A stretch of 64,000 bases of DNA, from contig CAIIXF020000007.1 in the NCBI GenBank assembly GCA_903813345.2, forward strand, positions 36,604,759 to 36,668,758, in the 5' to 3' direction. Positions within the stretch are counted from its first letter, which is position 1. Every line of letters begins with the position of its first letter. Below are positions 5,484-47,848 of the stretch, piece by piece. A model generated the notes under the pieces. That model did no database searches. It had not been told where the DNA came from and saw nothing but the letters and a program-made list of their open reading frames with translations. The stretch is from Owenia fusiformis. Its lineage: Eukaryota; Annelida; Polychaeta; Sabellida; Oweniidae. A program made the translations under genes and the position numbers.

Positions 5484-6293
5484 TTACTTCCTGTATGTGA
5501 TAGTGAATATGTTGCCATCCATGTCTCCAACTATCAGTTGCCCCTCCTGGTTGATGGCAACAGAATTGGGGCCACGCACGCCATCTTTCTTGGAAAGCAG
5601 ATAGTGAAGGAATTTGGCGTCAGGGGTCAGGAGATGTACCCTGTCGTTGATACTGTCTGCAACTATGATGTGGTTGGCTGCATCTGTGCAGACACCATAG
5701 GGGGAATTCAACTCACCCTGACCACTGCCATAGTTCCCATATTTAAAAACTTCCCGGCCATCTTTATCCAATCCTTTAATACAATGCAGATCCCAGTCGC
5801 TGACTATGGTGACATCAGATGTTGTCGATGCCACATAGAAAGGGTCCTTGAATGTATTGGAAAGGGGAGTTGTGTCTCCAGTGGACGGATTCACACGGTA
5901 CACTGTCTTGGTGTTGTAATCACATACAAGCAGCTCACCTGCAGGGGTTGATGTAATACCCCGCAGCTGTAGCTCTCCAGGTCCTCTGCAGGTGATGTCC
6001 CGTGTGGGGGTCCCGTCTACACTGTAGACACTTATGGTGTTCGTGAAGTCGGTGAATGCCAGATGGCCATCGGAAGTTAATGTTACGTAACCGAACTGCT
6101 TTCCAAGATCTTTCAACTGGTTGTGCTCTCGGCCATATATCTTTGCAGAAACGGGATAACCGGTTAGCCGATTATATCCTGTTACTGCAAAATGGCCATT
6201 GGGAATGAGAGTTAGATCGAATATCGCATTTGATCGTAGATTCTTCTTCTCCACTATTGGCTCACAGAGTTTCATTGCCACAAGCTTGTTGAA
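5484..6293 (-). CDS. Terminal exon: NHL-type beta-propeller, C-terminus of the composite gene
   Basis: A 269-codon exon ending in a stop. It starts after a clean acceptor (pyrimidine-rich, ttgatttcAG) and enters in phase 0 with Phe-Asn-Lys-Leu. It reads as successive propeller blades: short strands ending in patterns such as GHLAFTDF, GELLVCDY, HIIVADSINDRVHLL and GQLIVGDMDGNIFTI. The best NHL match is a GxGxGELNSPYGVCTD block followed by VADSxNDRVHLL. The length suits about six blades. NHL propellers bind protein or RNA and close TRIM2/3/32/71-type proteins, but no RING or B-box is seen here. The nearest upstream exons are 20- and 32-residue coiled-coil exons, also phase 0. The binding partner is unknown. 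The family call is firm; the claim that it belongs to the same transcript as the 44-46 kb exon is inferred from strand and phase. Confidence 0.87.
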   Translation of the reverse strand, partial: FNKLVAMKLCEPIVEKKNLRSNAIFDLTLIPNGHFAVTGYNRLTGYPVSAKIYGREHNQLKDLGKQFGYVTLTSDGHLAFTDFTNTISVYSVDGTPTRDITCRGPGELQLRGITSTPAGELLVCDYNTKTVYRVNPSTGDTTPLSNTFKDPFYVASTTSDVTIVSDWDLHCIKGLDKDGREVFKYGNYGSGQGELNSPYGVCTDAANHIIVADSINDRVHLLTPDAKFLHYLLSKKDGVRGPNSVAINQEGQLIVGDMDGNIFTITYRK

Positions 6294-7030
6294 CTGAAAT
6301 CAAATAAAAACAAATCATCAAAACATTAATATAAAATTTAGCATCAATATTTCAAGTCGAATCTATACATTTATGAGATCAAAACAAATAATTTTAATGA
6401 GTTTTATATGAATTTTCTAAACTAATTTTGTAGTAATTTGAATTGAAGATAATCCGACAAGTAATTAGGAGGATCAAACACAAGTTTTTACTTTGACTTA
6501 TTGGAATTTGCATTAAACGTAACATTTTGTTGTTTATGAGATCTATAATAGTTTGTGTGTATCTTCAAAGTCCAAATAAACAATTACAAATAAATAATTC
6601 ATACTACCTGATATTTAGATAATTGTAGCGCACAATAATGTTATGTGTTACTGAATAGAACAAGCAGACGAATATGATGCGTTGCAAAAGTTATCTTAGC
6701 AAATTTTAGCGCCATAAACATCATTTTAGGGAAAGGGATGAAAACGAAGTTTTGTTTACTTTTTGTTGCATTGAACCTGTATTGATTTTCTAGCTGCCAA
6801 CCCTCGCTAAAAATAAATAAACTGGTCCACAAAGATCCGCTGTCAATCAAGTTCGCTCTATTTTGAGATTTTGTTGCACAGATTGGCCACCTGTTCATCT
6901 TATTAAAAAATGCATTACCCTTACAATATTCTATTTAAAATCATGTAATATTTGAATTCTTGACAATGCAGTATTATTAATAATGAGTTCAAAACTTGTC
7001 TTTTTGATTTTACTTCTGAGCTACATTCTA
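6294..7030 (-). other. Intron, first part; nothing recognised
   Basis: AT-rich intron DNA upstream of the terminal exon, with no domain-bearing frame. Confidence 0.5.
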
Positions 7031-7267
7031 CAGTTGGGGACATAAATAAATGACAGGTGGATTTGCTGAAGTGAGGATTTCCCGTGTTAAAAATAAGAGA
7101 ATTTACAAGAGGTCATACATCAGTGGATGAGATTATACAAAATGTAAAATATACAAATTTTAAGGGATATATATCTAGACAATATTTGAAATTATGGGCT
7201 TTCAGACCACCATAATTAGGAAATGGTGATCGAAAATCGACCTGTCATTTATTTTTGTCCCCAACTG
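7031..7267. mobile_element. 237-bp TA-flanked MITE
   Basis: Ends read cagttggggacataaataaa and, inverted, tttatttttgtccccaactg, so the terminal inverted repeat is about 35 bp. TA dinucleotides lie directly outside both ends (7029-7030 and 7268-7269), as for Tc1/mariner elements. No coding capacity. Confidence 0.8.
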
Positions 7268-8749: not shown

Positions 8750-8879
8750 TACTACTATCACTTTCTAAAGAAATGCGCTTTGGCAGTCTTGATGTGTATT
8801 ATGTTGAATGGTGTTTCAAAATCTGAAGGCAATCATTGAGCTATACATGAATGACAGTTTCATCCTTTTATGTAGTGTT

Positions 8880-10305: not shown

Positions 10306-10309
10306 TACC

Positions 10310-13186: not shown

Positions 13187-13282
13187 CTCAGTCTCATATT
13201 TTAGTTGAGCATCCACCAGCTTTTCATTTGACATTAACAACTCATCCTGAAGGGTTGTCACCTTTGTGGAAAGGCCATGAAC
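13187..13282 (-). CDS. 96-nt coiled-coil exon (diverged copy)
   Basis: Acceptor ttttatttcAG, donor GTATTT, phase 0 to phase 0, 32 codons without stop. It starts Val-His-Gly-Leu-Ser and contains TLQDELLMSNEKL, the same spacing of leucines as the 33-kb exons but clearly older. The conserved donor-proximal ending is ETE. It sits between the 21.8-kb and 11.7-kb exons in transcription order. Confidence 0.75.
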
Positions 13283-16330: not shown

Positions 16331-16476
16331 TTTGTATCACCAATTCAAACATGACCGTGCTCTAATTGAATTTCTCAACCAATCAGAATGCAGCATAACC
16401 AATATAGAACGTTCTCTAATTCTCCATAGATGCACGACCGTGCTCTATCCAATCATCCGGGAATCTACGTATTGTA

Positions 16477-17120: not shown

Positions 17121-17246
17121 TATTTGCATTGTGACGTCACACCTGGGAATGGCGAAAATAACAGCGAGCTCGAGTTTGGTGTATCTCATGTAGCTCCAAT
17201 CCCCAATTCTCTGAACAATGTTTTCATTTTTTTATATGTTTGAATC

Positions 17247-21833: not shown

Positions 21834-21929
21834 CTCTGTCTCTGATCTCTGCTTTTCTTCTGTCAGGTTATTGTTTGCCATTGCCAGCTCATCTTGTAGA
21901 GATTTCACCTTGGAAGAAAGATCTAGAGC
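21834..21929 (-). CDS. 96-nt coiled-coil exon, displaced member of the young array
   Basis: The acceptor follows a T-run; the donor is GTTTGT instead of the GTATGT of its sisters. Phase 0, 32 codons, beginning ALDLSSKVKSLQDELAMANN and ending SETE. Its flanking intron sequence (aaatgttaccatttgagct) matches the introns at 33 kb, so it belongs to the same tandem array and was separated from it by the 10.8-kb insertion at 22006-32814. Confidence 0.8.
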
Positions 21930-23149
21930 CTGAAAAAATATTTGATATACAAAAATTAAAGGAATGTGTTTCAGCTCAAATGGTAACATTTATATATATA
22001 AAAAACAGGATCTTAAGAGGTTCTGGACAAATCATTTGATTCTGGACTTGTCATATTTTTTTTTCAACGAAATCACATCCAAGGGTTGAATTTTTATTAG
22101 CTATTTAGAGAGTGAGTCCTGCCTAGTATTAATTTCAATAAAAAAGTTAAAATAGAACCCTATTTGAGAGTCAATCTAATACTTACATTACATTGATAAA
22201 TTAAGGCAATCCTGAAATATTTTTAAAGTGCATTTTTTATGAAATATTATCCAGCAAGTATTTAGATGAAACGGTCTTATTTAAATACAAATCATAACAT
22301 GATGATATTTTTCATGAAACATTTTTCATTTTTAATTTAGGTGAAAACCCTTACATGATGATGTGTTTTCATAACTTCTGTCATAAAATTCCATCAAAGG
22401 GTGAAGATAAAATGATCGAATTTAAGTGATTTAAGGATCACGAGAATATGTTTTCTTGGATATTTTCTATGAAATCCCATCCAATGGTCAAGGTAAAATT
22501 TTGATTTTGATTTGGTATTAGGTCACGTGTTCCAAAGATCCATATAAGGCCCATAGAACCATATAGGAACGTCATTTTGAATGTCACGTGATAGATCCAT
22601 ATAAGGCTTTTAGAACCATGTCGGGAACGATGAGGGGAAGCCCCTGACACCTGTTTCACGATTTTATCCGAACATTGTTCGGATCATTTCGGTTTTTATG
22701 CACTTCATTATTGTACCGAAGTTTGCCGATTCGATTCGTCGTATTTCGGAATCCTGGTGACAATTTCATACTCCATTTGGAGTATTTTTGATCTACTTCT
22801 TATGACGAAAATTCCCGAACCTTGTTCGGATTAATCTGGATTTTCTGACCTACTTTATCTTCCGAGATTTCACGAGTTAACATTCGTCTCATTTCGGAAT
22901 CCTGGTGACAATTTTATACTCCATTGGAGTATTTTTGATCTACTTCTTATGACGAAAATTCCCGAACCTAGTTCGGATTAAACCGGATTTTCTGACCTAC
23001 CTTATCTACCGAGATTTAACGAGTTACATTCGTCTCATTTCGGAATCCTGGTGACAATTTTATACTCCATTGGAGTATTTTTGATCTACTTTTTCTGGAT
23101 TTTGCCCTACTTATTATATCTTGACAACAAGCAAATCAAAAAGTTCGAC

Positions 23150-23225
23150 ATGAACGGGTCTCGATCAACTAACCTTGAGCGTGGAAGCCAGGCACGCTAA
23201 CCATGAGGCCAACGTGCTACCGATA
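23150..23225 (-). other. tRNA-like segment in the left arm
   Basis: On the minus strand an A-box-like TGGCCTCATGGTTAGC is followed about 35 bases later by a degenerate B-box-like gatcgagaccc. The cloverleaf stems do not close well. It is mirrored in the right arm at about 31205-31285. Probably a tRNA-derived piece of the element rather than a gene. Confidence 0.35.
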
Positions 23226-23504
23226 TGAAAGAACAAAAGTATTATATATTTATACCGAGCGTCAATTCAAAATGATCCTCACTTTTGACTCCACTCTTGA
23301 CTTACGACTCGTCAGTTGTATCCAGAATAGGTGAATGCCTAGGGCGCTAGTGAATAACCAAGTCCCATGTGAGTGGTTCGTATCCCTCCGTAGTTTACTA
23401 TTTTTGTTTTATTAAATACGACAGAAAGGAGCAGGGTGTAGTTTGAAAACAAGACGTTAGTTTGTTTCAAAACAGTTTGGAAACATTTGAAATTCCTTAA
23501 TCCA

Positions 23505-24222
23505 CTCAGTAAAAATACGATTTCTCTGCAACCTGATGTCCAATCAAGATCATTTCAATATATATGTGTTCCTGACACGTCTGGGCGTCCGGGAATAGCA
23601 AAGTCTACACAAAGTTTGCACGCGAAATTGACGTAATTTATGACTGAAATCGGGAAGACAAAATTTGAGATTCACAAACAAAATTGCTTTTGAAAACTAT
23701 TTACAAAAGTGTTCCAGAGACTCTAATCTACTTGGCTAAGGTTTTATTTGAAGATACATTGCCTTATTAAGCAGGTAGAGGGGCATACAGAATACGGTAG
23801 CAAATGCTATGTTGAAAATTTTCTATATTTCAATTTGAACCTGTTATTACATGTCACGTAGGCCAGTGTTTTATTTGGGGATTATATGACTTTACTTGTT
23901 TACATGAACGTAAATCATTACATGAAATCTGCATTTTTCCGGGTTTAATCTGGGTTTGTATTGTCTTATTGGGGCTTTTCGACTTTAAAACAAACCCTAC
24001 CTAAATGGATTGTGTCTCGGCAACGTTTTTGTAAATAGTTATTATAAACAATTCTGAAAGAATATCACATATTTTTGTCTTCCCGATTTCAGTCATGAAT
24101 TACGTCAATTTCTCGTTCAAACAAACGGATGCCAGAACGTGTCAGGAACATATAGATACTCGAATGATGTTGATTGAACATCAGGGTGCAGAGAAATCGT
24201 AATTTTACTGAGTGGCTTCACG
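23505..24222. mobile_element. 718-bp palindromic insert at the inner end of the left arm
   Basis: ccactcagtaaaaatacgat and tttctctgca at the left are inverted at 24190-24222. An inner pair, gaattacgtcaattt / attgacgtaattta with cccgatttcagtcat, supports arms of roughly 200 bp. Non-coding. Confidence 0.7.
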
Positions 24223-24254
24223 AAAAAATAAGCAGCACTTTAGGCCACCTTAAG

Positions 24255-24650
24255 GTCAGGGTGCATGATGGGAAATTTTCTGCATTCCTCAATTGAGTCA
24301 CATGTTATTTTTCAAACAAGAATCACTCCTTCCCCAGAGGGTCTATATCTTCCAGGTTTGCACAAAGAGTGCTCTTATGTGCCTAGAAAAGACTTGTGAG
24401 ACGAATGTTTTGATAAAGTGTATAAAAAACAAGAAAATTCAGTGAAAAAATTCAGAAATTTTTCAGAATTTTTTTTCACTGAATTTTCTCGTTTTTTATA
24501 CATTTTACAAAACAAATCTTCTCACAAGGCTTTTCTAGGCACATAAGTGCACTCTTTGTGCAAACCTGGAAGATGTAGACAATGTGGGGAAGGAGTTATT
24601 TTTGTTTGAAAAATAACATGTGACTCAATTGAGGAATGCAGAAAAGGATG
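24255..24650. repeat. About 395-bp hairpin inside the TTAA element
   Basis: Left arm phrases tctgcattcctcaattgagt, gtttgcacaaagagtgc and gaaaattcagtgaaaaa return inverted in the right arm. The centre lies near 24455. Confidence 0.85.
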
Positions 24651-25117
24651 AGTCTGGGAATGAGTCTGGGTATCGACTTAGAAAATATTGAAAATTGTAA
24701 TGTCTGAAAAACCAGCTCAATCACACATATTATTAAACTTCAATATCTTATCCTTCTTCTGAGATTACTAAAATATCAATTTGTATCACAATTGATGAAG
24801 AATATTGGCATCAAAGACAGTGCATATCACTTTGTCAGAATTGAAAAAAAATCAATGGCAAATATTAAATGAATTATTTATACAAAAGGTTTGAAACATA
24901 TCCTCCAAAACATTGCTTATTTTCTTTGTATAGACATTGAATGGTATTTCTGGATAAGTGAATTTGTATTTATCTGGGTAATCAAGGGATTATAGTCACT
25001 CAAAGTTACTGAGCATCCAGTTTTGAGACTTCAATTGTGTTGGTGAAGTTACACATATTTCAGTCAAATTCATGCTGAGCACAACATTTTGGTTTCAATT
25101 TTATAATCCCTATACAT

Positions 25118-26857
25118 CACGGGGTGCCATCGAATAATTTTGGCAACGTACCGGAGAACGACATTTTACTAAGAAATGGCAATAATTAAGCACAATATAT
25201 TTTTAACTAGAGTTCTATTTTGATTTTGACAAAAGTAAGTATTCCATGCAATAACTATTTCATTCATGAGTTTGTAGGAATTCTGTTGGAACCCAGTTCT
25301 GATCAAGTACGAAGTTATTGAAATCGGCGCAGACGGACTTTACTCCGAAAGATGGTTTTTCGATTATAACTTTTCACAACATTTAGGTATAGACTTTTGA
25401 AAAAAGTACAGAATAGTCCTTATACTTTTGAATAATTCTGTTATTTCTGATTCACACGACTCTGATTTGTTTAATTAAAAAAAAAGTTTTAAAAATATTA
25501 CTTAGGAACGTAACCGGAGCTGGGAACGTAACCGGAGCAGATCAGTTGAATTATTTAATCAAAAAAATTAAAATATATGATTTGTAACATGGTCATTTTC
25601 ACATTGTTTATATTTCTACTTTTCATATTGACCAATCCCCATCCATGTCATTTTAACAGGTCCCTTCATTACTTTACACCAGTGTTTCAAATATTTAATT
25701 CCAATGTTTTCAATTCTTTTGTATACTTTCTACTATATCTTCCTTTATTTAAAGCAATTTTTAGCTTTTCATGGTGTGATTGTTTCGTACTGTTTTTGTA
25801 TTCCATATAATAGCATTCACTCACATGTAGCTGAGTTTGGGTGTTGGCCCAGCCTAAGTAGTTGCTTAGAGTTAGATGATAATGTAGATTGTACAGAGAA
25901 CGTTTGAAGTTTATTTGAAATAGACTATTTTATATATTTTAACTTTAGTTATCTGTTACTTTTATTTGCCACCCACGGGCCTTACACTCGCCCCGTTACA
26001 GATTTAAAGCACATATACTAATTTAAAAACATACGGGATTGTTCGAATGCGTATTTATTACATTTAATTTAAAGAAAAAAATTTATCCATTGTGAAAAAT
26101 TAAATTTGGTATTTACCATGCATAAGTGCACTTACCTTAGAAAGGCTATCAGACATAGAACAATCATTGTATGGAGAATGAAGTGATTAAATGTAGTAAG
26201 CAAATATTTCCATTTGATTTCACCCATTGTATTTGTTCAGCAAACTATTAGAACCCACTCTGTTATACTAATTTCTAATTAATTTCTAATTTATACTAAT
26301 TGCCATGCATTGATTTTCCTGTAAGTGAAGGGTAATAAATAATGCTCATTTTAACATTCATATGTGTTTGTAAATAATATATATGCTTTAAATCATATAT
26401 TGTATTTTTTTTAAATTATATAATTCAACTGATCTGCTCCCGTTACGTTCCCAGCTCCGGTTACGTTCCTAAGTAATATTTTTAAAACTTTTTTTTTAAT
26501 TAAACAAATCAGAGTCGTGTGAATCAGAAATAACAGAATTATTCAATAGTATAAGGACTATTCTGTACTTTTTTCAAAAGTCTATACTTAAATGTTGTAA
26601 AAAGTTATAATCGAAAAACCATCTTTCTGAGTAAAGTCCGACTGCGCCGATTTCAATAACTTCGTACTTGATCAGAACTGGGTTCCAACAGAATTCCTTC
26701 AAATTCATGAATGAAATAGCCATTGCATGGAATACTTACTTTTGTCAAAATCAAAGTAGAACTCGAGTTAAAAAATATATTGTGCTTAATTATTGCCATT
26801 TCTTAGTAAAATGTCGTTCTCCGGTACGTTGCCAAAATTATTCGATGGCACCCCGTG
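25118..26857. mobile_element. 1.74-kb element with 450-bp inverted arms and 6-bp target duplication
   Basis: Ends CACGGGGTGCCATCGAA and TTCGATGGCACCCCGTG. The arms run to about 25560 and from about 26420, nearly identical. ATACAT flanks at 25112-25117 and 26858-26863. The interior 25570-26010 matches 29640-30035. No convincing protein: the open frames are low-complexity and hydrophobic. The superfamily is open. Confidence 0.88.
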
Positions 26858-27760
26858 ATACATGACCCTGGTGATGAAGAGTCAGATTCAGTCAAAAAAC
26901 CCAAACCGGAAAACTGTGCTCATTGTGAAAACTAAAAGTGAAGCAACTTTTTTCTGATATTTCTTACATCGAATGGCAGCCATTTTGTTTTTCCCCCTTC
27001 AAATTAAACTGGCGGGAAATTCAAAAATTTGAAAAAAATTTTAATTCTTAAATATATTTCAAAAATATGATTTTCTTATTAATTCTTCATGGGTTTTAAG
27101 TTATTTCTTCTTTGTATGTCATACATGTTGCCATTGGTGTTTTTTTCTATGATAATGACTATTTCTTGTTTGTTGGGCTACTTATTCTGACTCTCAGCAG
27201 GGGGCTAATTATGCATCAAAACTCATGAAAAAGTAAATATACTTATCAAATATGACTAGGACAGTAATAAAAACCATATTTCATATACATTTGACTGAGG
27301 GACCAAAAGGGCATATACCCAGACACATCCTTTCCCAACATGCACCCTGTCCTTAAATACAACTCGTCAGTTGTATCCAGTTGGAACCCCAGCGTATTTT
27401 TTTAATTTTTTTAATTATATGGTTGTGCTTTGATTTTACGCTGAAAACATTTATAACTACGTCAACTTTATATTAAAACATTTATTATCTTTTCGGTTGT
27501 ATTAAAATGTAAAATATGATATATGTCAACTAATTGCTTTCTGGAGAACAGTCAAGGTTTAAATTTGGTACAATGAATCGTACACTCATGTAAATCGACA
27601 TGGTTATAACATTGAGCTCAATGCAGTAAATTAGTTATTTCTATGAATCACAGCGGGATTGGTTTCATTTTATATGATTGCCAACTCCGGCGGTATTTTT
27701 GTAAATGCTTTTGACCGCGGTAAATGTGAAACTGATACAGTTGTGTATTATTCAATTGTT

Positions 27761-27878
27761 TTAGGTCTTGGTCACATTTGCTCCGATTTTCACTACGGCC
27801 CCCGGCCGATTGAGTATTGTGTTCAGAAATGTATTCAATTTTGAACAAAATACTCGCAGCAAATGTGATCCAGGCATT
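27761..27878. mobile_element. Stem-loop MITE, GGTCACATTTG family, copy 4
   Basis: Ends cttggtcacatttgctccga and gcagcaaatgtgatccaggc, with the inner arm cccggccgattgagtattgt. The right inner arm is partly deleted. Confidence 0.75.
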
Positions 27879-27959
27879 ACACAGCGGTATTTCGAACATA
27901 CTATTGTTGCATAACCACGACCCAGCCAATTTTAAAATCATACTTCTTATTTAAATCCA

Positions 27960-29362
27960 ACGATAGGAGCTCATGGAAAGTATACATTTTAACTTTTATA
28001 CATCTTTACAAATACTAGAAATCTACATGTTCGAGTGGATCACATAGCAGCAGTCTCCATAAAATGCAAAATACCTGTATTGATAACTTGACTTTGACTG
28101 ATTTTTGAATTGAGATGAACTTGTTGAAACCTCGTGAAACGCCAGATACTAGTACCTAGATGTGACCTTGAAATAATGTTGGCCAATACACATTGACTTT
28201 GACCTTAGGTCACCTAATCATGTGTCGTCAAGGGTCATTGTAGCCCTCAAGGTCCTTACAACGCCAAATACTTAGATATTAAGTTTTGATCTTGAAACAA
28301 ACATGACCCAGTAACATTGGCCTTGAACTCAGTTCACCTAATCGTTGGTTGCCAAGGGTCACAGCAGTCCAAAGGACTTTAAATCACCAAATACCTAGAT
28401 ATTGATATTTTACATAGGAATGACCTTGACTTCAGGTCAACTTATCATGCCTCATCAAGGGTCGAATCTCAGACTGAGGGTAAAAAACGCGTAAACCTAG
28501 ATATTGACATTTTAAAGAGAGAATCTGATCTAGCAAGCAGTCTAACAAAAAAATGTTTCAATTTTAGAATATTTCTGGCTTATGTCATTCCTTTTCATGT
28601 CTATTTTCTAAAAATATAATCCCAAAAGTGCACACTTTATTTCAGGAAAACTAAAGAGTTTACAACAATGACTTTTGTATATTTCTTTTATAAGAATGGT
28701 TACTTATTATTTACAATTTTGCACTTTTAATCTATTATAACTTCATCAATTTCTAACATATCGTAAATATTCTGTGAGATATTGTATTTGAGATTGTAAG
28801 GAATAGTGTACGTCAGTTGTACATGTTGCTTGTAATTTTGTCACCTCCATATATCTGATTCTGCCTTTAACCTAGAATGACTTTGACCTCTGACCTTAGT
28901 AGAACGCTCACTGGCCCATCAAGTATGAGGGCAAAAGGAGATGTCGAGACCTACTATAAAGCATGTTCGGTCTGTCTGTCATTTTGTCTGTCTGTCGGGA
29001 CATCTCCTTCTACACCATTTAACCTTAGTAAGTTGGTCTCCGAAGGTCAGAGTTAAGTTCATTCAAAGGTAAACGATCAATGTCTAGGTATTTGGCGTTT
29101 GATGATACTATGGCCCTTGGCGAATTATGATTAGATGAACCGAGGTCAATATTAATGTTTCTTGTACAAGGTCATCCCGTCATCCCGAGGTCAAAGATAA
29201 ATATTTAGGTATTTTACATTTCAAGACCTTTGGACAAATTCGATTCAATTCAAGAATCGGTCAAGGTCAAAAAATCAATATACAGGTATTTTGTATTTTT
29301 TTTGTAAAGATGTATTAAAGTTAAAATGTAAACAGAGATAAAATAGGTTAGCTCCTATCGTT
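27960..29362. mobile_element. About 1.4-kb inverted-repeat element
   Basis: The left end cgataggagctca and right end gctcctatcg are inverted, with further matching tacattttaacttt-atacatctttacaaa inside. The interior has direct copies of a phrase like tgaccttgacttcaggtcaact / catcaagggtc (28140-28470), partly inverted at 29000-29290, and tctgtctgtc runs near 28970. Non-coding. Confidence 0.7.
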
Positions 29363-29389
29363 TCCTTGTGTATACGTTTATGTCTTTGC

Positions 29390-30140
29390 GTAATAACGCA
29401 GATGCAAGCAGGTAGATACCAGTCTCACCACAAGGTGGCTTGTTCGGGTCAGATAGCATGGCGGGTATGGTAGAAGGTTCCCTTTAACTTAAAGTACATC
29501 TGTTTTCGTGGTTCAATTTTCATATCACCCTTAAAATGTATCTAATAGCAATGCAAATTAAAATATGTCCAGTGAAAGAAAATGCAATACAAGAATAGAT
29601 ATTTCACTTTTTGTGATTTTGTAACAATGGGGTTATTTTTTGTATATGTAACATGGTCATTTTCACATTTTATATTATTACTGTTCATATTTATCAATCC
29701 CTATTCATCTCAATATAACAGGTCCCTAAGTAGGTTGTTTGCAGTTTTAATCTTTTAATACCATGTTCACTTTTCACCTTTTATTGAAACCAGTTATTCA
29801 ACTATGCAAACTGTGTCAGTTTTATATATCTATTGTTCCCTTATATGGTCTTTCTCACTCACATGTAGCTGAGATTGGGTGTTGGCTTGTCAGTAGTTGT
29901 TGTAAGAGTTCATGGTGTAGATTACAGAGCATTGTATTTTGAACATTGAAGTTTGAAATATACTATTTTATACATATTTTAATTTGAAGTTCGAGTTATT
30001 TTATTGCCACCCACGGGACTTCCACACGCCCATTTACATATAACGCATTGAAACAACTTTAAAAAGTGAGCAATGTCAGTGTTGTGATAATAACGCCCCT
30101 CATACCTATTTATTACAGGTCGTGTAGACCATTGTTGCCT
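29390..30140. repeat. Compound of dispersed repeats
   Basis: 29400-29640 matches 10620-10850. 29640-30035 matches the interior of the element at 25570-26010. 30036-30133 (taacgcattgaaac...cctatttattacaggtc) matches 50972-51066. Three repeat families therefore abut here. Confidence 0.65.
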
Positions 30141-30359
30141 GATTTATAGCAAAAACATTGACTTTTGCACGTTGATGATGATGCGCCTTTTATAATAGAT
30201 CTCATATCTTAGAAGCGTATCAGTTCAAAAAAATACTAGAAGACCTTACATATTTTGCCATGCACTGCGCCTATTCATTTGGCAATTTAGTTGTAAATTC
30301 TATCTTGAAAAAAATAAATCTTCCAAATTTATTGAGTTTTCTTGCAGAAATCGCCTACC

Positions 30360-30950
30360 CCCCCCCCCCCATCCATCCATTTCGTATGATCACCGGGCGT
30401 GATTTAAGCTGCTGATATTCTTCTTTAAACGAGTCTATAAGTTGGACTCCCTTTATAGAAGCTTTGAACTGAATTTGCCTGCTTAATGCTGAAATTTTAT
30501 TGTTTATCCATACATTTTAAGAAAAAAAATGTATAAAAAGAGATGTTAAGCCAAATGTTGCCATAACAATTCAGAAAATGTAAAAAATTTCGAATTTTAT
30601 ATGTACAGGCCGCGTTGCCCCTTTAAGAAGCTCAATATGAAAATTATCTAATCAAACATTTCATCCACCATTTTGAAACACTAATCAATCCAATCTGTGC
30701 TAGCGATTCATAGGGCGAGCCATTTGGATATTTCCAGGCTTCGTACACACCTGCAAATGTCAGGGAAATTGACTTAATTTTCCAAGTGCTGGAAATGTCA
30801 GGGAATTTTAAAATCAGGTCAAAAGGGCAAACGATGACCGGGAATTTTGAAACGGTAGATATGTCAGGGAAATTGGATTGAGTGGATTAATGAATTTCAT
30901 AGATCTAGAGGCCCTTCAGGAGTGGAAAATCTTAAAATATCAGAGATTAA
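30360..30950. other. Interior of the 10.8-kb element, nothing recognised
   Basis: A C-run near 30360 and AT-rich DNA. No gene. Confidence 0.4.
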
Positions 30951-31204
30951 TGTTTCCAAACTTTTTTGAAACAAACTAACGTCTTGTTTTCAAACTACAC
31001 CTTGCTCCTTTCTGTCGTATTTAATAAAACAAAAATAGTAAACCACGGAGGGATACGAACCACTCACCTGGGACTTGGTTATTCACTAGCGCCATAGGCG
31101 TTCACCTATTCTGGATACAACTGACGAGTCGTATTTAAGTGGAGTCAAAAGTGAGGATCATTTTGAATTGACGCTCGGTATAAATATAAATAATTTTGTT
31201 CTTT

Positions 31205-31285
31205 CATATCGGTAGCACGTTGGCCTCATGGTTAGCGTGCCTGGCTTCCACGCTCAAGGTTAGTTGATCGAGACCCGTTCATGTC
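31205..31285 (+). other. tRNA-like segment in the right arm
   Basis: Mirror copy of 23150-23225, with tggcctcatggttagcgtgc and gatcgagaccc. A second B-box-like ggttcgtatccc lies on the minus strand nearby (its left-arm counterpart is on the plus strand near 23380). Stems are weak. Confidence 0.35.
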
Positions 31286-32278
31286 GAACTTTTTGATTTG
31301 CTTGTTGTCAAGATATAATAAGTAGGGCAAAATCCAGAAAAAGTAGATCAAAAATACTCCAATGGAGTATAAAATTGTCACCAGGATTCCGAAATGAGAC
31401 GAATGTAACTCGTTAAATCTCGGAAGATAAGGTAGGTCAGAAAATCCGGTTTAATCCGAACTAGGTTCGGGAATTTTCGTCATAAGAAGTAGATCAAAAA
31501 TACTCCAATGGAGTATAAAATTGTCACCAGGATTCCGAAATGAGACGAATGTTAACTCGTGAAATCTCGGAAGATAAAGTAGGTCAGAAAATCCGGATTA
31601 ATCCGAACAAGGTTCGGGAATTTTCGTCATAAGAAGTAGATCAAAAATACTCCAAATGGAGTATAAAATTGTCACCAGGATTCCGAAATACGACGAATCG
31701 AATCGGCAAACTTCGGTACAATAATGAAGTGCATAAAAACCGAAATGATCCGAACAATGTTCGGATAAAATCGTGAAACAGGTGTCAGGGTCTTCCCCTC
31801 ATCTTTCCCGACATGGTTCTAAAAGCCTTATATGGATCTATCACGTGACATTCAAAATGACGTTCCTATATGGTTCTATGGGCCTTATATGGATCTTTGG
31901 AACACGTGACCTAATACCAAATCAAAATCAAAATTTTACCTTGACCATTGGATGGGATTTCATAGAAAATATCCAAGAAAACATATTCTCGTGATCCTTA
32001 AATCACTTAAATTCGATCATTTTATCTTCACCCTTTGATGGAATTTTATGACAGAAGTTATGAAAACACATCATCATGTAAGGGTTTTCACCTAAATTAA
32101 AAATGAAAAATGTTTCATGAAAAATATCATCATGTTATGATTTGTATTTAAATAAGACCGTTTCATCTAAATACTTGCTGGATAATATTTCATAAAAAAT
32201 GCACTTTAAAAATATTTCAGGATTTGCCTTAATTTATCAATGTAATGTAAGTATTAGATTGACTCTCAAATAGGGTTC

Positions 32279-32657
32279 TACCCTTTGCATTCGTTTGACT
32301 TCACTTTTTAAAAGAGAGCTTCGTCTTCACTCTTTCAAACTAAAATAAACCTGTGAACTCACCGCGCCAATCAGTGTTCGTCGGCCAAATTTGACCGACG
32401 TTCTATATATGGTCATTCCTTCTGACGTCATCGTTGAGCCCGGAATTGACCAATGACATGCGCATATTTAATTAGAACGCATTTGGCGTATGTTTCTTCA
32501 AGCTCGCCGATTGGTGGAAGAAAGGTCAGCGCGTAGGTCAAAAGTGATTTATTACCCAAACTGTCACCGGTACCCGTTGTGGGGGCGGGGCTACTAAACT
32601 GTAATGTGGTCTCTACTAGGCAGAGTGTAGTTTAACTAGACTCTGCACGCAGGGTAA
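32279..32657. mobile_element. 379-bp element with 8-bp target duplication, copy B
   Basis: Inverse orientation to copy A at 20319. Begins TACCCTTTGCATTCG and ends CGCAGGGTAA, flanked by TAGGGTTC at 32271-32278 and 32658-32665. The left arm of the 10.8-kb element (near 22150-22165) shows the uninterrupted site, so this is a later insertion into the right arm only. Confidence 0.92.
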
Positions 32658-32850
32658 TAGGGTTCTATTTTAACTTTTTTATCGAAATTAATACTAGGCA
32701 GGACTCACTCTCTAAATAGCTAATAAAAATTCAACCCTTGGATGTGATTTCGTTGAAAAAAAAATATGACAAGTCCAGAATCAAATGATTTGTCCAGAAC
32801 CTCTTAAGATCCTGTTAAAAGAAATGTTACTGAAATGTTTCCCTACATAC

Positions 32851-32946
32851 CTCTGCCTCTGATCTTTGCTTTCCTTTAGTCAGGTTTTTATTTGCCATTG
32901 TAAGCTCATTCTGTAGAGATTTCATCTTGGAAGAAAGATCTAGAGC
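32851..32946 (-). CDS. 96-nt coiled-coil exon, array member 1 (genomic order)
   Basis: GCTCTAGAT start after AG, donor GTATGT, phase 0, 32 codons. Contains MKSLQNELTMANKNLTKGK, so two glutamates of the consensus are replaced. It is the last intact copy before the 10.8-kb insertion in transcription order. Confidence 0.8.
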
Positions 32947-33047: not shown

Positions 33048-33143
33048 CTCTGCCTCTGATCTCTGCTTTTCTTCTGTCAGGTTATTATTTGCAATTGCCA
33101 GCTCATCCTGTAGAGATTTCATCTTGGAAGAAAGATCTAGAGC
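33048..33143 (-). CDS. 96-nt coiled-coil exon, array member 2
   Basis: Phase 0, AG acceptor, GTATGT donor. Reads ALDLSSKMKSLQDELAIANN then NLTEEKQRSEAE. Starts 197 bp from its neighbour at 32946. Confidence 0.85.
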
Positions 33144-33247: not shown

Positions 33248-33343
33248 CTCTGCCTCTGATCTCTGCTTTTCTTCTGTCTGGTTATTATTTGCCATCGCCA
33301 GCTCATCATGTAGAGATTTCACCTGGGAAGAAAGATCTAGAGC
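33248..33343 (-). CDS. 96-nt coiled-coil exon, array member 3
   Basis: Phase 0, intact splice signals. ALDLSSQVKSLHDELAMANN then NQTEEKQRSEAE: a glutamine replaces a core leucine. Spacing to member 2 is exactly 200 bp. Confidence 0.85.
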
Positions 33344-33447: not shown

Positions 33448-33543
33448 CTCTGCCTCTGATCTCTGCTTTTCTTCTGTCAGGTTATCATTTGCCATTGTCA
33501 GCTCATATTGTAGAGATTTCACCTTGGAAGAAAGATCTAGAGC
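33448..33543 (-). CDS. 96-nt coiled-coil exon, array member 4
   Basis: Phase 0, intact splice signals. ALDLSSKVKSLQYELTMAND then NLTEEKQRSEAE. Spacing to member 3 is 200 bp. Confidence 0.85.
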
Positions 33544-33646: not shown

Positions 33647-33742
33647 CTCTGCCTCTGATCTCTGCTTTTCTTCTGTCAGGTTATTATTTGCCATTGCCAG
33701 CTCATCCTGTAGAGATTTCACATTCGAAGAAAGATCTAGAGC
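33647..33742 (-). CDS. 96-nt coiled-coil exon, array member 5
   Basis: Phase 0, intact splice signals. ALDLSSNVKSLQDELAMANN then NLTEEKQRSEAE. Spacing to member 4 is 199 bp. Confidence 0.85.
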
Positions 33743-33846: not shown

Positions 33847-33942
33847 CTCTGCCTCTGATCTCTGCTTTTCTTCTGTCAGGTTATTATTTGCCATTGCCAG
33901 CTCATCTTGTAGAGATTTCACCTTGGAAGAGAGATTCAGATC
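33847..33942 (-). pseudogene. 96-nt coiled-coil exon with a lost acceptor
   Basis: The reading frame and GTATGT donor are intact, and the codons after the first few match the consensus. But the two bases before the exon are AA, not AG, and the usual T-rich tract is replaced by unrelated sequence. Use of the nearest AG would start one base inside and shift the frame to an early stop. The exon is probably skipped, which the 96-nt symmetric length allows without harm. Confidence 0.75.
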
Positions 33943-34049: not shown

Positions 34050-34145
34050 CTCTGCCTCTGATATCCGCTTTTCTTCTGTCAGGTTATTATTTGCAATTGT
34101 CAGCTCATCCTGTAGAGATTTCACCTTAGAGGAAAGATCGAGAGC
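34050..34145 (-). CDS. 96-nt coiled-coil exon, array member 7
   Basis: Phase 0, AG acceptor, GTATAT donor. ALDLSSKVKSLQDELTIANN then NLTEEKRISEAE. It starts 203 bp from the broken copy. Confidence 0.82.
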
Positions 34146-38432: not shown

Positions 38433-38528
38433 CTCTGCGTCTGATCTTTGTTTCACTTCTGTTAGGTTACTATTTGCTTTCAGCAGCTCATCAGGTGTAC
38501 TTGTCAATTTCGATGAAAGATCGAGAGT
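38433..38528 (-). CDS. 96-nt coiled-coil exon, older copy
   Basis: Acceptor AG after a short tract, donor GTATTC, phase 0, 32 codons. Starts TLDLSSKLTSTPDELLKANS and ends KQRSDAE. A proline at position 12 would kink the helix. Intact but diverged. Confidence 0.7.
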
Positions 38529-38637: not shown

Positions 38638-38763
38638 CTCTGCCTCCGACCTCTCCTTTGCTTCTGTCATATTATGATTCACCATTGACAGTTTTGTTAT
38701 GTTATTGTTTGCCAATACGAGTTTGTCCTGTAGAGATTTCATCTCGGAGGAAAGATTCAGAGC
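38638..38763 (-). CDS. 126-nt coiled-coil exon with a 10-residue expansion
   Basis: Phase 0, 42 codons, donor GTATTT. Starts ALNLSSEMKSLQDKLVLANN and ends AKERSEAE; the middle has an extra segment (ITKLSMVNHN) absent from 32-residue sisters. Forty-two residues are exactly six heptads, so this exon keeps heptad register where 32-residue exons add four extra residues. Confidence 0.75.
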
Positions 38764-39341: not shown

Positions 39342-39437
39342 CTTTGTCGCTGTTCTCTGCCTTTCTTCTACCAGGCTATTATTTGCAATTGAAAGCTCAT
39401 CTTGTAGAGTTTTCATCTTGGAGGAAAGATCCAGAAG
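39342..39437 (-). CDS. 96-nt coiled-coil exon, most upstream intact copy
   Basis: Phase 0, AG acceptor (tgaattgcAG), donor GTATTT, 32 codons. Starts LLDLSSKMKTLQDELSIANN and continues SLVEERQRTATK. In transcription order it is the first intact coil exon after the nucleotidyltransferase/TPR exon, whose donor is also phase 0. Confidence 0.72.
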
Positions 39438-41736: not shown

Positions 41737-43042
41737 AGGACGATTCTCAGTTTGGAGAACAGTCACCTGGGCTAATAATTTTTTCATGAAAAATATAGAA
41801 ATATTACCCAAATTAAACTATGAATATTCAAAAGAGGACATTTAAATCTACAAGATGTAAAAATAACGAATTGGTCTGAAGCAGGGATAACGCTCAATTA
41901 GACCGATTCAATAAAATACAAGTCTCGATTTGGGGAAAGAAGTTCATCAGTGTACTGCGCTAATATTTTTTGGCGAAAAATCTAGAAATACAGGGTGTTC
42001 AAAAAAACGCAACCCAAAGATATCGCTATATCTTGAAAAATACTGGTTCAATTATGTTCATATTTTCAGGAAATAAAGAAGAGACTGTGTATGTATAGCT
42101 CATGTAAATGATAAGTTGTAAAACATGATGCCTTAGACACCTGCTCAAAAGACAGTTGTACTAGGAAAATACGAAAAACGCAGTCGAGGGTGTCTGCAAC
42201 CGCAAAAACATTAAATAACTTCCTAACCATAGTGTTTTGGCTCTTCAGATTTGGCACAAATTATCTTCATTCACTGTTTGGTAAATCTGTAGAGTGAAAT
42301 AAAAATCACTTCAGGGACTTTACAGTCATGGTTGAAATGCTTTCAAATCGCAGTCAAACGCCCTGGTTCAGGGAGACTTAAGAAGGAATTTTGACCATGT
42401 CTGTAAACTCCCTGGAGTGATTTTAATGAAACTCCACAAATGCACCACACATTGAATGAGGATAATTTGTGCCAAATTTGAAGTGCCAAAACACTATGGT
42501 TAGAAAATTATTTGGTTTTATTGCTGTGGCAGTCACCTCTGACTGCGTTTTCATATTTTCCTAGTACAACTGTCATTTGAGCAGGTGTCCAAGGCATCAT
42601 GTTTTACAACTTACTGACAACAGGAGCTATACATACATAGTCTCTTCTTTCTTTTCCTGAAAAAATGAACATAATTGAATTAGTATTTTCCAAGATATAG
42701 TGGTTTTCCATGAGCGTTTTTCGTATTTTGCTAGTACAACTGTCTTTTGCGCAAGTGACCAAGACATCATGTTTTACAACTAAATTACAACAGGGGCTAT
42801 ACATACACAGTCTCTTCTTTCTTTCCTGAAAATATGAATATAATTGGATAGGTATTTTCCAAGATATAGCGATTTCTTTGGGTTGCGTTTTTTGAACACC
42901 CTGTATTACCCAAATTAAATTATAACTATTCAAAAGAAGATATTCAAATCTATATTATGTAAAAAAATCAAATTTGTCCGAAGCAGGGATAATGCTCATT
43001 TAGATTGATGAACTTCGTTCTCCAAACCGAGAATCGTCCTTT
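41737..43042. mobile_element. Element with 26-bp inverted ends, host to a nested MITE
   Basis: aaaggacgattctcagtttg at the left is inverted at the right with one mismatch in 26 bases (AAAGGACGATTCTC[AG]GTTTGGAGAAC). A phrase ttacccaaattaaa-tat...gaagcagggataa occurs on both sides of the nested element (41810-41890 and 42905-42990). Confidence 0.7.
41991..42903. mobile_element. 913-bp TA-flanked MITE, nested
   Basis: Ends cagggtgttcaaaaaaacgcaa and inverse, TA at 41989-41990 and 42904-42905. The arms carry aagatatcgctatatcttga and its inverse. Inner blocks such as ctagtacaactgtc-tttg-gca-gtg recur, so the inside is itself repeated. Same family as the left end of 7708. Confidence 0.88.
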
Positions 43043-43236
43043 GTCATATTTATGACGCCAACTTATGGTAAAAAGTTACACTTGCGATTTTGTGAGTTGT
43101 TCTATTCAATCCATTCTAACTTTTACCATATGTACAAAATTCTTTGAAATGTTCTCCATTTTGCCAAAGTATACTTACACTGTACCTGTACATTTGAATG
43201 TTCAGTATGATAATTCAAAAAATGATCGATAAAGGA

Positions 43237-44087
43237 CACCCTATGCAGACAGAGCCTGTGGGAAATATTGGGTGCGGCGCAAATGAGCGGAGGGTGCGGA
43301 GCTAACGGTCATTTTTGAATTTAAAATGGGGGGATTTCTGAAACTAAGCCGTTTTGGGACTTCAAATATACCAAGATATGTGTATTTGACACCAAATATC
43401 AATAAAATTGTGAAAATAGTAGTGCAATTCATTTTATAGCGACGCAGTATGCCTTAAACATTTCCCAGACCTATATATTTTGAGACTATCCTTTTAATAC
43501 TGCGTCCCCAGCATTCATAAAAAATGGTGTTCAAGATACACTACCCATGCAAATTATTTTTGCATCTTGGAAGCCAGGCAGTATCTGTGTGATTTTATAA
43601 AAATTCGGAAATGTTCTTCAGATATGAGCCCCCTCTAAATATTGGGTGCGGAGCTACGTTTATGGAGCTGCTCCGCACCCAATATTTAGAGGGGGCTCAT
43701 ATCTGAAAAACATTTCCGAATTTTTATAAAATCACACTGATACTGCCTGGCTTCCAAGATGCAAAAATAATTTGTATAGATAGTGTACCTTGAACACCAT
43801 TTTTTATGAATGCTGGGGACTCAGTATTAAAAGAATAATTTCAAAATATATAGGTCTGGGAAAGGTTTAAGGCACACTGCGTCGCTATAGAATGAATTGC
43901 GCTACTATTTTCACAATTGTATTGATATTTGGTGTCAAATACACATATCTTGGTATATTTGAAGTCCCAAAACGGCTTAGTTCCAGAAATATCCCAAATT
44001 TAAATTCAAAAATGACCGTTAGCTCCGCACCCTCCGCTCATTTGCTCCCCACCCAATATTTCCCACAGGCTCTGTCTGCATAGGGTG
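43237..44087. mobile_element. 851-bp near-perfect palindrome with 5-bp target duplication
   Basis: Ends CACCCTATGCAGACAGAGCC and inverse; AAGGA at 43232-43236 and 44088-44092. Each arm is about 420 bp and the centre is near 43660 (gtgcggagctacgtttatggagctgctccgcac). Arms match base for base over long stretches. The open frames in the arms are mirror shadows. Confidence 0.9.
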
Positions 44088-44493: not shown

Positions 44494-46617
44494 CTCTGCT
44501 AATGCTGGGTGTTTCTTTAGGAGGTCTTCATATTCTGCTGTCCTCCCACCCTCTTCATACGCTGACAGCAAGAGCTTTAGTGAATCGACATCTTGAGGTG
44601 AATTTTGAACACTTGTTTCTAGTACCCCAGTCGCCTCCTCAATGTTACCCTTTTGTTGCAGGGCACATCCTAATGTATTCATGGTTCCTGAGCTTTCACT
44701 TTCAATGACTCTAATTTTCAGCTTGTCCAAAAAGGGCTTGCTTATACTGTCATCTTCAATGTACATATTGCACAGAATGTGCATAATCAGTTGTGTTGTC
44801 TCAGAGCTCTCACATGTCTCGTTTGCTTTTATCAAGTGTTCCTTGGCCTTTTCTTGATTTTGCATCAGCATGTAGGCGATTGCATTATTCAGGTCAGATG
44901 GATCATACAGGGATGATTGTGCAATCCTTTCCAGTGTTTTCTCTGATTTTCCTACTTCAATAGCATAGACAAGTGGTATAGCTGTTTGGTAGTAGCGCAA
45001 AATAAGATATTCACTAAAGGTTTTTGTATCAATGCCATCTAGTGTGAGGAGTTTTGGCAAAAAGTGGTCTTTCAACTCGTCTAATTGACCATTGTTCTCT
45101 GTGTAACATCTTAGTCGTAGTTCTGCAGCGCTGGATAGTATCATTTTTAGGTTGTGTGTTGCCATCTCGCTGAGCCCTTCTAGTTCTACCACATCCCATA
45201 TACAATCTGCATTACTGTTCACCAAGTGGAGTAAGTTGTTAATTATAACACTTGGTAAGCGGTAAATCTCTTTCTTTACATGGAGTGACTTTTTCTTTAT
45301 AAGTGTTTTCTTATATTTTGCGTCGTACATTTTTTTTATACAGGAGTACTTTTCCAAGTCTTGCCTGAGCTCCTTTTTAATAAGGTCTATAACTGTTTTT
45401 CGTTGAGCCTCGTTTTCCCTGAATTCTTTTTTCAAATCAACCTCAACTGATTCGTCTCCAAAGATTGTTATAAAGTCTCCTTTGAAGAAAAACAATAGGT
45501 TTTCCAGATCACCTTCTTTCATTTCACGATAGTTCGCTATGAATGCGGCCTTTGTATTTGTCAATCGGAAGCTGTTATTTTTAGGACTGGTGTAATAGGG
45601 TGTTTTGTTTGCATTAGGCATCATTCCATCAAATGAGATTCCCTGTTTTGTATTTACATAACTTCGTAAGTCAAGGTACCAGTCCTTTATTTTGTCATTA
45701 AGATCAGATTCATTAAGTGCATCTATCCACATTGCTGGGAGGACGGTTTCGCCAAATGCTAGGACCTTCAGATGAAGAATCATAACCATCTTGTTTATGG
45801 TTTCTCTGTTTTCAGGCTGCATTTCCAAATCATCTGAGTTCTGCACTACAGCAAATTCTACATCAGAGAAAGGTGATGTTTCTTTTCTCGAAAGAGATCC
45901 AAATGCAATCAAGGCAAAGTCTTCATTATGGAAATTAAGGACATCCATACTCTGTTGTACCAGACTTGATATGAAAGTTTTCATTTTCTGAAATATCCAC
46001 TTAAAAATCTCTCCAATATGTTTTATTCTTTCTACTTCAGATTTCACCTTTTCCTTATTTTTGATCCCAGTTGCAAAACAGTTACATTCCTTGTTTTCAT
46101 CAATCTGTAAGATTTTCTCTTTCAATTCCTTTCGTATTTCTTCAAGTCTGTCTTTATTCGTTCCTTCATCTTCAAAGTATCTGTTTGATATATCTGTTCC
46201 GATGCAATATTTAAAGAAAAGTTCAAGAGCAGATCGCTTTTCTTTTTCATATGCAGATAGCTCACTGCGCAGATCGTCTCCGCACTGCACTATTCCTGTT
46301 TCGTAAATGCTGACTGCCTCAACATAGCCCATTGGCTTATTTTCGATTTCTGCAATGGATTTATGAAGATTACCAAGTTCCCTCAACAGCTGCACATGTG
46401 TCTCTCTATGTTTTTGCCATTCCTTTTTAGATACATTCCCTGGATCCTTTTGTAAATTCTTGTTTATGGATGGGAGTTCTTTAAGGGATTTTGTTATTTC
46501 AAGTTCTTTTCTTTTAAAATCATCAAGCTTTTGTTTCGTGCCTGGATTCCTTAACATCTGGAAGTACTCTTGTAGTTTGCTGATTAGTTGCCTGATGTCA
46601 GACAAATTTAAGGATAC
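44494..46617 (-). CDS. Giant exon: helical N-region, DUF294/Pol-beta-type nucleotidyltransferase, TPR-like C-region
   Basis: 708 codons, phase 0 at both ends: acceptor tgtattacAG before Val-Ser-Leu-Asn, donor GTGAGC after ...PALAE. Residues 1-95 and 115-225 are charged helices. At about 240-255 the motif FGSLSRKETSPFSDVEF gives the Gly-Ser...Asp-x-Glu signature of the nucleotidyltransferase fold as in DUF294 and the GlnD N-terminal domain, so catalytic metal ligands may be retained (Asp252, Glu254 in exon numbering). Conserved-looking text follows to about 430 (ETVLPAMWIDAL, FRLTNTKAAFIANYR, FITIFGDES). The last 150 residues read as helical pairs with TPR character (MNTLGCALQQKGNIEEA, then LETSVQNSPQDVDSLKLLLSAYEEGGR). 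The substrate is unknown: it could modify a protein or nucleotide, or be a dead scaffold. The exon has no internal stop. The reading frame is certain; the domain names are motif-based. Confidence 0.88.
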
Positions 46618-47647
46618 CTGTAATACATGAAGTTTATGTCATAAAGTTTTCAGTTTAAACTATCCGATGATAATAAGGCATTGATCATTAGAAACTTGCC
46701 AAAATGAGGCGATAATAGTGTGTTGCTGCCTGATTATTTTACATTTTCAAAACGACCAGCGTTTAGATAAAATATAGGATTTGCTACTACAGGGAATTGA
46801 TGCAATATAATTTGTTGCCAACGTAAAAATGGCGCATTTAAGTGAATTAAGATAAGGAAATAGTGATGTAGGTCAAATATAGTTCTAAGTGTCCATGTTG
46901 TACACGTCATATGAAAAAATCATTGCAGAACAGAGCAAATGATATTGAAAACAATTAGTACAATAAATTGATGCTGATTTCTCTTTATGTAACTCAACTC
47001 CCTCTAATTTTTAAACAAGTGCGTGTAAATGATGGATATATATTGGATATTAGGATGTTATTTGGTCAAATTCCCCAGTATCACGCCCGGTGATCGGAAA
47101 ATGTGACGGAGCGGGAGCAGGCAATTCCTGCATTTTTTCAAGAAAAGGATTACTATCAAATTCTTAAATAAACAGGTGCACGGTATAATAAAATATGCTG
47201 GGTGTTCTACAAGTGCGGGCTTGTTTACCCAGAAAGCAAAATGGCCACGAAAATATTAATCAGCTGTAGAACATGTAACGTGTGGAAAGATTTGATTTAA
47301 ATCCGCTCAGTGGGTTAGAATACCCTGTCTCAAAGTCGAAATTATTTTATCATCTCTAGAAGTGATATTTCTGGAGGAATGCATTCGCCTAACATATGCA
47401 CCTGTTTAAATTACCAGGAAATGGCCAAAATCAAACATATGACTGTCCAAAATCTGTTGCGCTAACTTCCCTCCTCCTTAAAACAACTAACGTAATTTGA
47501 AAACTATTGCAATTTATTTTGGGTTAAGCCTTTTTTCATTAGTTTGACTGATCTATATTTAGTATTACTAGATAGTATGTATCATATATGTAGCAAACTA
47601 ACATATAAACAAACCCCTATACGAGTTAATTTAAAAGTAGTTCTTAC
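46618..47647 (-). other. Intron; partial dispersed repeat at 47397-47485
   Basis: About 1 kb of AT-rich intron. Bases 47397-47485 resemble the left edge of the window (1-95). No other feature. Confidence 0.6.
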
Positions 47648-47848
47648 ATCATTCTGTGTCCGCTCCTTATGTGTCTCTGCTAGTTCCCTCTGTTCTCCTT
47701 CTTGCTTTCCTGCTTCCTCTACCTTCTTTGGTGCATCTTCGGTCATTTTTCTTCCTGTCTCAAAATGTTTTTCATCGTCTTTTGATTGATCGCTACGGCT
47801 TGGTAGTACGTGTGATACCTTTTCATCAAGGATTGTTAGAGAAAGGAG
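47648..47848 (-). CDS. 201-nt charged exon upstream of the nucleotidyltransferase exon
   Basis: Acceptor tgctactttcAG, donor GTAAGA, phase 0 to phase 0, 67 codons. Starts LLSLTILDEKVSHVLPS, then becomes rich in Lys, Glu and Gln (EDAPKKVEEAGKQEGEQREL), a likely disordered or helical linker. It joins in frame to the exon at 46617. It has no family signature, so the call depends on splice signals, strand and phase. No start codon suits it at the 5' end, so at least one more exon must lie at higher coordinates. Confidence 0.58.

Follow-up and report, generated by a model that had tools for sequence, protein, structure and literature searches.

A 64,000-nucleotide stretch of the genome of the annelid Owenia fusiformis (contig CAIIXF020000007.1; hereafter the window, whose own numbering is used for all positions) carries on its minus strand a set of exons that we lean towards reading as one animal gene. 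It would encode a protein of about 1400 residues with an N-terminal AMPylase-like nucleotidyltransferase (NTase) joined to tetratricopeptide repeats (TPRs), a coil built from duplicated exons and an NHL head. The exon assembly is real and unusual, most likely represents one gene, and is a new arrangement of known modules.

Gene Model and Exon Anatomy

Acceptors and donors were read base by base along the minus-strand exons from 47848 to 5484, and every internal junction is in phase 0. Joined from the ATG at 47746, the coding sequence is 4179 nt long, divisible by 3, and encodes 1392 amino acids (aa) with its sole stop as the final codon. The modules are arranged as an N exon, an NTase-TPR exon of 708 aa, 12 usable coil exons (382 aa) and an NHL exon of 269 aa. 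A first-pass annotation of this DNA had proposed that these phase-0 exons join in one open frame, and this is borne out, with every part that it named lying where it had been placed. Its length estimate of at least about 1450 residues was slightly high, given the 1392 aa of the conservative exon set; a longer variant that includes the array copy 33942 (32 aa) and the part of the N exon 5' of the ATG (34 aa) reaches 1458 aa. The features of the gene are as follows, all on the minus strand unless stated otherwise; a slash marks the donor junction and coil exons are named in the text by their higher coordinate.

47648..47848, minus: N-terminal exon, acceptor ctactttcag, donor GAT/GTAAGA, phase 0, likely start ATG at 47746 (33 aa)
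44494..46617, minus: NTase-TPR exon, 2124 nt, 708 aa, donor GAG/GTGAGC
45856..45900, minus: NTase catalytic motif G240-x11-D252-x-E254 (exon numbering), the same in 9 of 9 aligned rows
39342..39437, minus: coil exon, 32 aa, from splice sites and homology to the array
38638..38763, minus: coil exon, 42 aa, its two halves separated by 10 residues inserted in frame, phase 0/0 retained
38433..38528, minus: coil exon, 32 aa, from splice sites and homology
34050..34145, minus: coil exon, array unit, the first in the ~200-bp tandem repeat
33847..33942, minus: array copy without a phase-0 acceptor, probably skipped
33647..33742, minus: coil exon, array unit
33448..33543, minus: coil exon, array unit
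33248..33343, minus: coil exon, array unit
33048..33143, minus: coil exon, array unit
32851..32946, minus: coil exon, array unit directly before the inserted element
22004..32816, strand not assigned: inserted element with long terminal inverted repeats, splits one array intron, outside the protein
21834..21929, minus: coil exon, array unit separated from the others by the 10.8-kb insertion
13187..13282, minus: diverged coil exon, 32 aa
11648..11707, minus: last coil exon, 20 aa, without match to the coil-exon profile, placed by splice sites and frame alone
5484..6293, minus: NHL beta-propeller exon, 810 nt (269 aa and stop)

The window is AT-rich (32–37% G+C in 4-kb steps), and both strands were scanned for exons by a codon score for which the NTase and NHL exons alone served as training, with the plus strand as background. 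A filter for coil-like phase-0 exons returned 21 candidates, all of them on the minus strand. Among the top 22 non-overlapping internal candidates of the minus strand, 17 were pieces of model exons (5 of them from the two training exons), 1 was the 33942 copy and 4 were others; the best internal-exon score on the plus strand was 16.7. The N exon, which lay outside the training set, scored 41.2 as an internal and 26.1 as an initial exon, against plus-strand bests of 16.7 and 14.5. The exons of the tandem array, likewise outside the training, scored 18.4–23.4 and thus above the plus-strand best, and 38763 scored 17.6. For the older coil exons, the scores were 14.1 (13282), 12.0 (38528) and 11.2 (39437); these values do not exceed background, so these exons rest on their homology to the array. 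The array peptide matches 39437 at E = 1.6e-10 and 38763 at 2e-9, and the 13282 peptide matches an array exon at 3e-4 and 38528 at 6e-4. Exon 11707 was missing from the top list of the scan. Chance open reading frames (ORFs) were ruled out as an explanation by the strand bias of the coil filter together with the exon scan. An Rfam scan gave 0 matches.

Evidence for One Gene or Two

The donor at 44494 is among the 7 strongest, itself included, of 3198 GT dinucleotides on the minus strand, and the chance of finding a donor that strong, in phase, within the last 18 codons of the ORF is roughly 0.2%. The NTase exon is therefore probably continued by splicing in the direction of the coil. A coding scan, which non-coding exons escape, found no initial or terminal coding exon above plus-strand background between 44.4 and 39.4 kb: the best initial candidate (44201-44031) scored 10.7 against 14.5, and the best terminal candidate (44231-44019) 12.9 against 21.4. 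As weaker evidence, only 1 polyA-like hexamer follows the NTase stop in 1441 bp, where 3.2 are expected; after the NHL stop there are 3 in 1485 bp, as many as expected.

These results bear on the model of two adjacent genes, in which an NTase-TPR gene would end near 44.4 kb and a coil-NHL gene, TRIM-like without RING and B-box, would start before 39.4 kb. Phase-0 compatibility by itself is cheap, non-coding first exons are invisible to the coding scan, and a coil followed by an NHL propeller is a self-sufficient TRIM-like unit. In addition, the NTase ORF could end unspliced at its own stop, 17 residues (54 bases) past 44494, which speaks against a composite gene. The very strong in-phase donor, the failure of any initial or terminal candidate in the interval to exceed the coding-scan background and, weakly, the scarcity of polyA-like hexamers make two genes unlikely. 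Judged on the sequence, the composite gene put forward in the first-pass annotation is favored and most likely correct, and a single transcript would then span NTase, coil and NHL propeller.

The Coil and Its Duplicated Exons

Twelve coil exons are usable, being bounded by AG and GT and in phase 0/0 (39437, 38763, 38528, 34145, 33742, 33543, 33343, 33143, 32946, 21929, 13282 and 11707). The earlier description of a coil made of duplicated exons needs correction for some copies, as 33942 lacks its acceptor, 39613, 39140 and 38906 are decayed, and tails alone are left at 40211, 40003 and 39797 (39.8–40.2 kb). In the copies of 32 residues, positions 4, 8, 11, 15, 18 and 22 are hydrophobic in 9–10 of 10, a coiled-coil-like spacing of 4-3-4-3-4, and the 32 residues could be read as three heptads and one hendecad. 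Each coil exon is symmetric, with phase 0 at both ends, so that gain, loss or skipping of a copy leaves the reading frame intact. The only Pfam family matched by the coil was pXO2-34, a family of unknown function, at E = 9.3e-7 and 29.4 bits with a cut-off of 30.8; it is read as coil-on-coil similarity.

The array (34151-32817) is a ~200-bp tandem repeat, in which exons and introns can be compared for signs of constraint. The edge exons 34145 and 21929 differ by 5–12% from four inner copies, and their downstream introns by 26–32%. Of 36 departures from the consensus in 8 array copies, 14 are synonymous, where 8.2 are expected (P = 0.02; 0.022), but this excess is weak because shared changes are counted repeatedly and transition bias is uncorrected. 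Two comparisons tell against a constrained coil: the upstream intron of 21929 differs by just 8–11%, and among the five innermost copies the exons differ by 4–8% and the introns by 3–7%, with no constraint on exons over introns, so that these newest copies give no sign of constraint. Several decayed coil copies and the 10.8-kb insertion could also mark a decaying gene, with array and element insertions as the traces of a pseudogene. We consider this very improbable, as the joined 4179 nt contain no internal stop or frameshift, the splice sites are present, and the array changes show the synonymous excess given above.

The NTase-TPR Module and Its Chlamydial Relatives

The NTase-TPR exon consists of a helical N part, a DUF294/GlnD-like NTase, a helical domain and a TPR-like end, and matches the NCBIfam GlnD model at 2.1e-5. 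When plasmids were searched by tblastn with this exon, one record was obtained at E ≤ 1, from Neochlamydia sp. S13 (E = 1e-19). The record contains 11 matching places, and the exon is co-linear with its chlamydial NTase-TPR protein over residues 62–670 (pairwise E = 8e-32). In the Neochlamydia sp. S13 protein, an F-box, DUF294 and numerous TPRs are matched. A search with the Neochlamydia stretch also retrieved three Vibrio plasmids, which align over no more than the NTase core (22% of the query) at E between 2e-7 and 7e-7. A scan of genome contigs with a DNA motif pattern yielded 10 stretches, 9 of them in records labeled Chlamydiae or Parachlamydiaceae and 1 in a record labeled Alphaproteobacteria. 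The Pfam cut-off for DUF294 was passed by 5 of the 5 full-length chlamydial relatives scanned, and no NHL was among the best families of these five. In the phylum of one of these genomes, labeled as a Parachlamydiaceae metagenome-assembled genome (MAG), the family profile has matches in 18 of 116 genomes, with at least 16–17 matches in each of three genomes and at least 18 in the seed genome, scoring in these being capped at 16 candidates. No relatives were found in viral contigs with P0001 (the NTase exon), P0002, A2 or the motif pattern as queries, nor in phages by tblastn, and a first scan of genome contigs with A2 gave none that was confirmed. A plain label of 'unknown DUF294' was set aside, relatives having been found. 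Other DUF294-TPR proteins occur in invertebrates.

The window was aligned with 8 open frames from 7 of the 10 stretches (9 rows in total; L006, L010 and L012 were dropped, having no frame under the residue pattern). Identity of the window to the aligned relatives is 15–25%. G240, S241, R244, E246, P249, S251, D252, E254, G289, E290, T291, G326 and D330 are unchanged in 9 of 9 rows, and the catalytic motif G-S ... D-x-[DE] is present as G240, S241, D252 and E254. In a phylogenetic tree the window groups with the Parachlamydiaceae rows with support 100/99, on a branch of 2.32 and at a place where, as the program warns, long branches meet. In the same tree the NTase of the alphaproteobacterial record (L011) is a very near neighbor of the one from a Chlamydiae MAG (L004; branches 0.087 and 0.053), which may reflect misbinning or recent transfer.

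The NEX2 family, as described in PMC4209131, comprises 50 proteins encoded by two Neochlamydia genomes. They have C-terminal TPRs; the majority also carry an F-box, most carry DUF294, and OTU is present in ten. In a tested member the type III secretion signal was functional, although secretion was predicted for only two. Judging from their architecture, the Neochlamydia sp. S13 proteins would belong to NEX2. These chlamydial proteins and the window share a helical region, DUF294 NTase, helical domain and TPRs in the same order, as well as the co-linearity and the invariant motif given above. The chlamydial relatives differ from the window in carrying an F-box (P0004) or ankyrin repeats (L005, L007) in front, in having many more TPRs and in being bacterial open frames, whereas the window has introns and no F-box match: with Pfam, no F-box was found in the NTase or N exon at E ≤ 1 or in the coil at E ≤ 1e-4. 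The NTase-TPR core is common to NEX2 but an F-box match is lacking, and therefore we call the window a relative and not a member. In L005 (244-3210) and L007 (2198-5410) the ankyrin repeats precede the NTase-TPR core; the core is therefore combined with different heads in different bacteria.

Predicted Activity of the NTase

Searched against the Protein Data Bank (PDB), the family profile retrieved three DrrA chains (1.2e-12, 7.7e-6 and 6.4e-4) and, up to E = 1, just two further hits, both at noise level (0.11 and 0.53). Among the 9 rows, Pfam matches were found to DUF294 in 7, to SidM_N in 7 and to DUF294_C in 6. An AlphaFold model of the window module, built from the 9 rows, had its best PDB match (Foldseek) in DrrA (E = 1.4e-5), the only one of 238 at E ≤ 0.001, and the next fold matches were domains of the Escherichia coli glutamine synthetase adenylyltransferase GlnE (3.7e-3 to 1.2e-2). 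Residues 11–100 of the model have a pLDDT of 65–83. The published motif G-X11-D/E-X-D/E, which allows Glu at the second acid (PMC8097203), is fitted by the window as G240-X11-D252-X-E254. E290 lies 38 residues past D252, near the 40 that separate Asp110 and Asp150, and could be the third ligand. The N-terminal AMPylase of DrrA/SidM and GlnE (GS-ATase) have this motif in common with the window; similarity beyond it comes from the family profile and the fold match of the model and not from a direct match of the window sequence. Both are bacterial, and a table row in PMC3710099 likewise gives the GlnD/GlnE/DUF294_C/DrrA group as bacterial.

Several results weigh against so specific an assignment. 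Firstly, the NTase exon scores 19.1–19.9 bits against Pfam DUF294, below the gathering score of 21, its TPR matches are below cut-off, the window row has no SidM_N match, and it also matches IpaB_EvcA at chance level (0.006). Secondly, a phmmer search of the PDB with the NTase exon found no NTase; as the window sequence alone has no direct DrrA match, the link to DrrA runs via the relatives. Lastly, confidence in the structure model is low (mean pLDDT 57 with 9 rows; TM 0.50 and rmsd 10.4 for the DrrA match), and a single-sequence model failed (mean pLDDT 39.6). The name 'DUF294-type' given in the first-pass annotation was right but incomplete, since the module is co-linear with a chlamydial NTase-TPR protein, its family profile reaches DrrA and its fold reaches GlnE.

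Within a single composite gene, the NTase could still be a pseudoenzyme or a pure scaffold. The long branch (2.32 changes per column), the low identity to the relatives and the Glu at the second acid of the motif, which is Asp in DrrA (PMC8097203), would fit this. The window, however, keeps the family-invariant motif residues (G, S, R, E, P, S, D, E, GET and D330), the chlamydial rows carry Glu at this position too, and the published motif permits it. We therefore regard loss of activity as rather unlikely, if worth bearing in mind. The NTase might also act on RNA or a small molecule, or make a nucleotide signal, instead of modifying a protein. Enzymes of the polymerase-beta fold do all of these, and TUTases (E from 0.056) and CdnC (0.58) figure among the low-ranking fold matches; the best sequence and fold neighbors are, however, protein adenylyltransferases, and the TPR context would suit protein substrates, which makes this option improbable. 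The NTase that had been called possibly catalytic has its motif intact and can now be read more specifically as a predicted AMPylase-like protein nucleotidyltransferase. Transfer of AMP (or UMP) to protein is our best guess, because the homologs point there.

The NHL Propeller and Comparison with TRIM Proteins

The propeller assigned earlier to the C-terminal end is confirmed: the exon matches Pfam NHL at E = 1.5e-10 and TRIM3, TRIM71 and TRIM2 chains at E down to 4.5e-33. The absence of RING and B-box also stands, as Pfam gave no match to either in the NTase, NHL and N exons at E ≤ 1 or in the coil at E ≤ 1e-4, and the interval between NTase and coil holds no further coding exon above background. 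Membership of the TRIM family was rejected, RING and B-box not being found. TRIM-NHL proteins (TRIM2, TRIM3, TRIM71, brat and thin) share with the window a coil followed by a C-terminal NHL propeller (with a presumed number of blades), but in the window an NTase-TPR module takes the place of RING and B-box and the coil consists of tandem 32-aa exons.

Inserted Element and Repeats in the Window

The element at 22004-32816 has inverted repeats of ~1.5 kb at both ends that are 98.6–99.4% alike. Its flanks together align over their full length with one complete array intron, with an 18-nt surplus at the join, 11 nt of which are element ends left in. The array therefore once reached 21929, and the 10.8-kb element then landed in an intron. 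Two inner ORFs of the element (27648-27950, minus; 25632-25907, plus) have no Pfam match. A 380-bp sequence inside the right inverted repeat (32279-32657) recurs just outside the element at 20319-20698 (96.6% alike) and is probably a small mobile element. Palindromes of ~650–850 bp, 80–94% alike, lie at 43237-44087, 42026-42700 and 16475-17122 and are probably foldback or MITE-like elements in introns. Downstream of the gene, 3811-4292 is a tandem repeat with a 91-bp unit of 23-bp subunits. Beyond its other end, an ORF on the plus strand at 50677-51015 encodes a Mos1 transposase HTH domain (E 1.4e-6) and is a mariner-type remnant, and ~1.25-kb units, 97.8–99.2% alike, stand head to tail at 55133-58099. 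The ORFs with the best internal and terminal exon scores of the plus strand, at 63228-63927, have no Pfam match and are possibly an exon of a neighboring gene or element.

Proposed Mechanism and Implications

We propose that the N-terminal 741 residues would form a GlnE/DrrA-type protein nucleotidyltransferase with a polymerase-beta fold that most likely transfers AMP from ATP, while the helical domain and TPRs would hold the substrate. The coil of ~382 residues, mostly one 32-residue exon copied many times, links the NTase to the NHL propeller; it may hold the protein together as a dimer and fix how far the enzyme lies from the recognition head, and the propeller would recognize a partner. 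The metazoan AMPylases FICD and SelO have the same activity as proposed here, and Fic AMPylases also pair TPRs with a catalytic domain, but their folds are Fic and kinase-like and not polymerase-beta (PMC8097203). This 2021 review, in the part available, names Fic and SelO as the only metazoan AMPylases. A literature search found no publication joining NTase, NHL and TPR, none on DUF294 with tetratricopeptide repeats in metazoa, and none on a uridylyltransferase in oyster.

Tentatively, and with more doubt than attaches to the gene itself, we suggest a third class of metazoan AMPylase, in which a DrrA/GlnE fold shared with chlamydia-like endosymbionts is mounted on a TRIM-style coil and NHL head in a native multi-exon gene. 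The source of the module could be transfer between bacteria and animals, in either direction, and its reach could be tunable via the coil exons. If true, a DrrA/GlnE-type module in an animal gene would add this class to the two named in the 2021 review. It would also link a chlamydial family, of which a tested representative has a secretion signal (PMC4209131), to an animal gene, which bears on exchange between hosts and intracellular bacteria or on the countering of such enzymes. The tandem symmetric exons are a clean case of a protein rod lengthened through exon copying, and if transcripts confirm the gene model, it would represent a new kind of composite protein.

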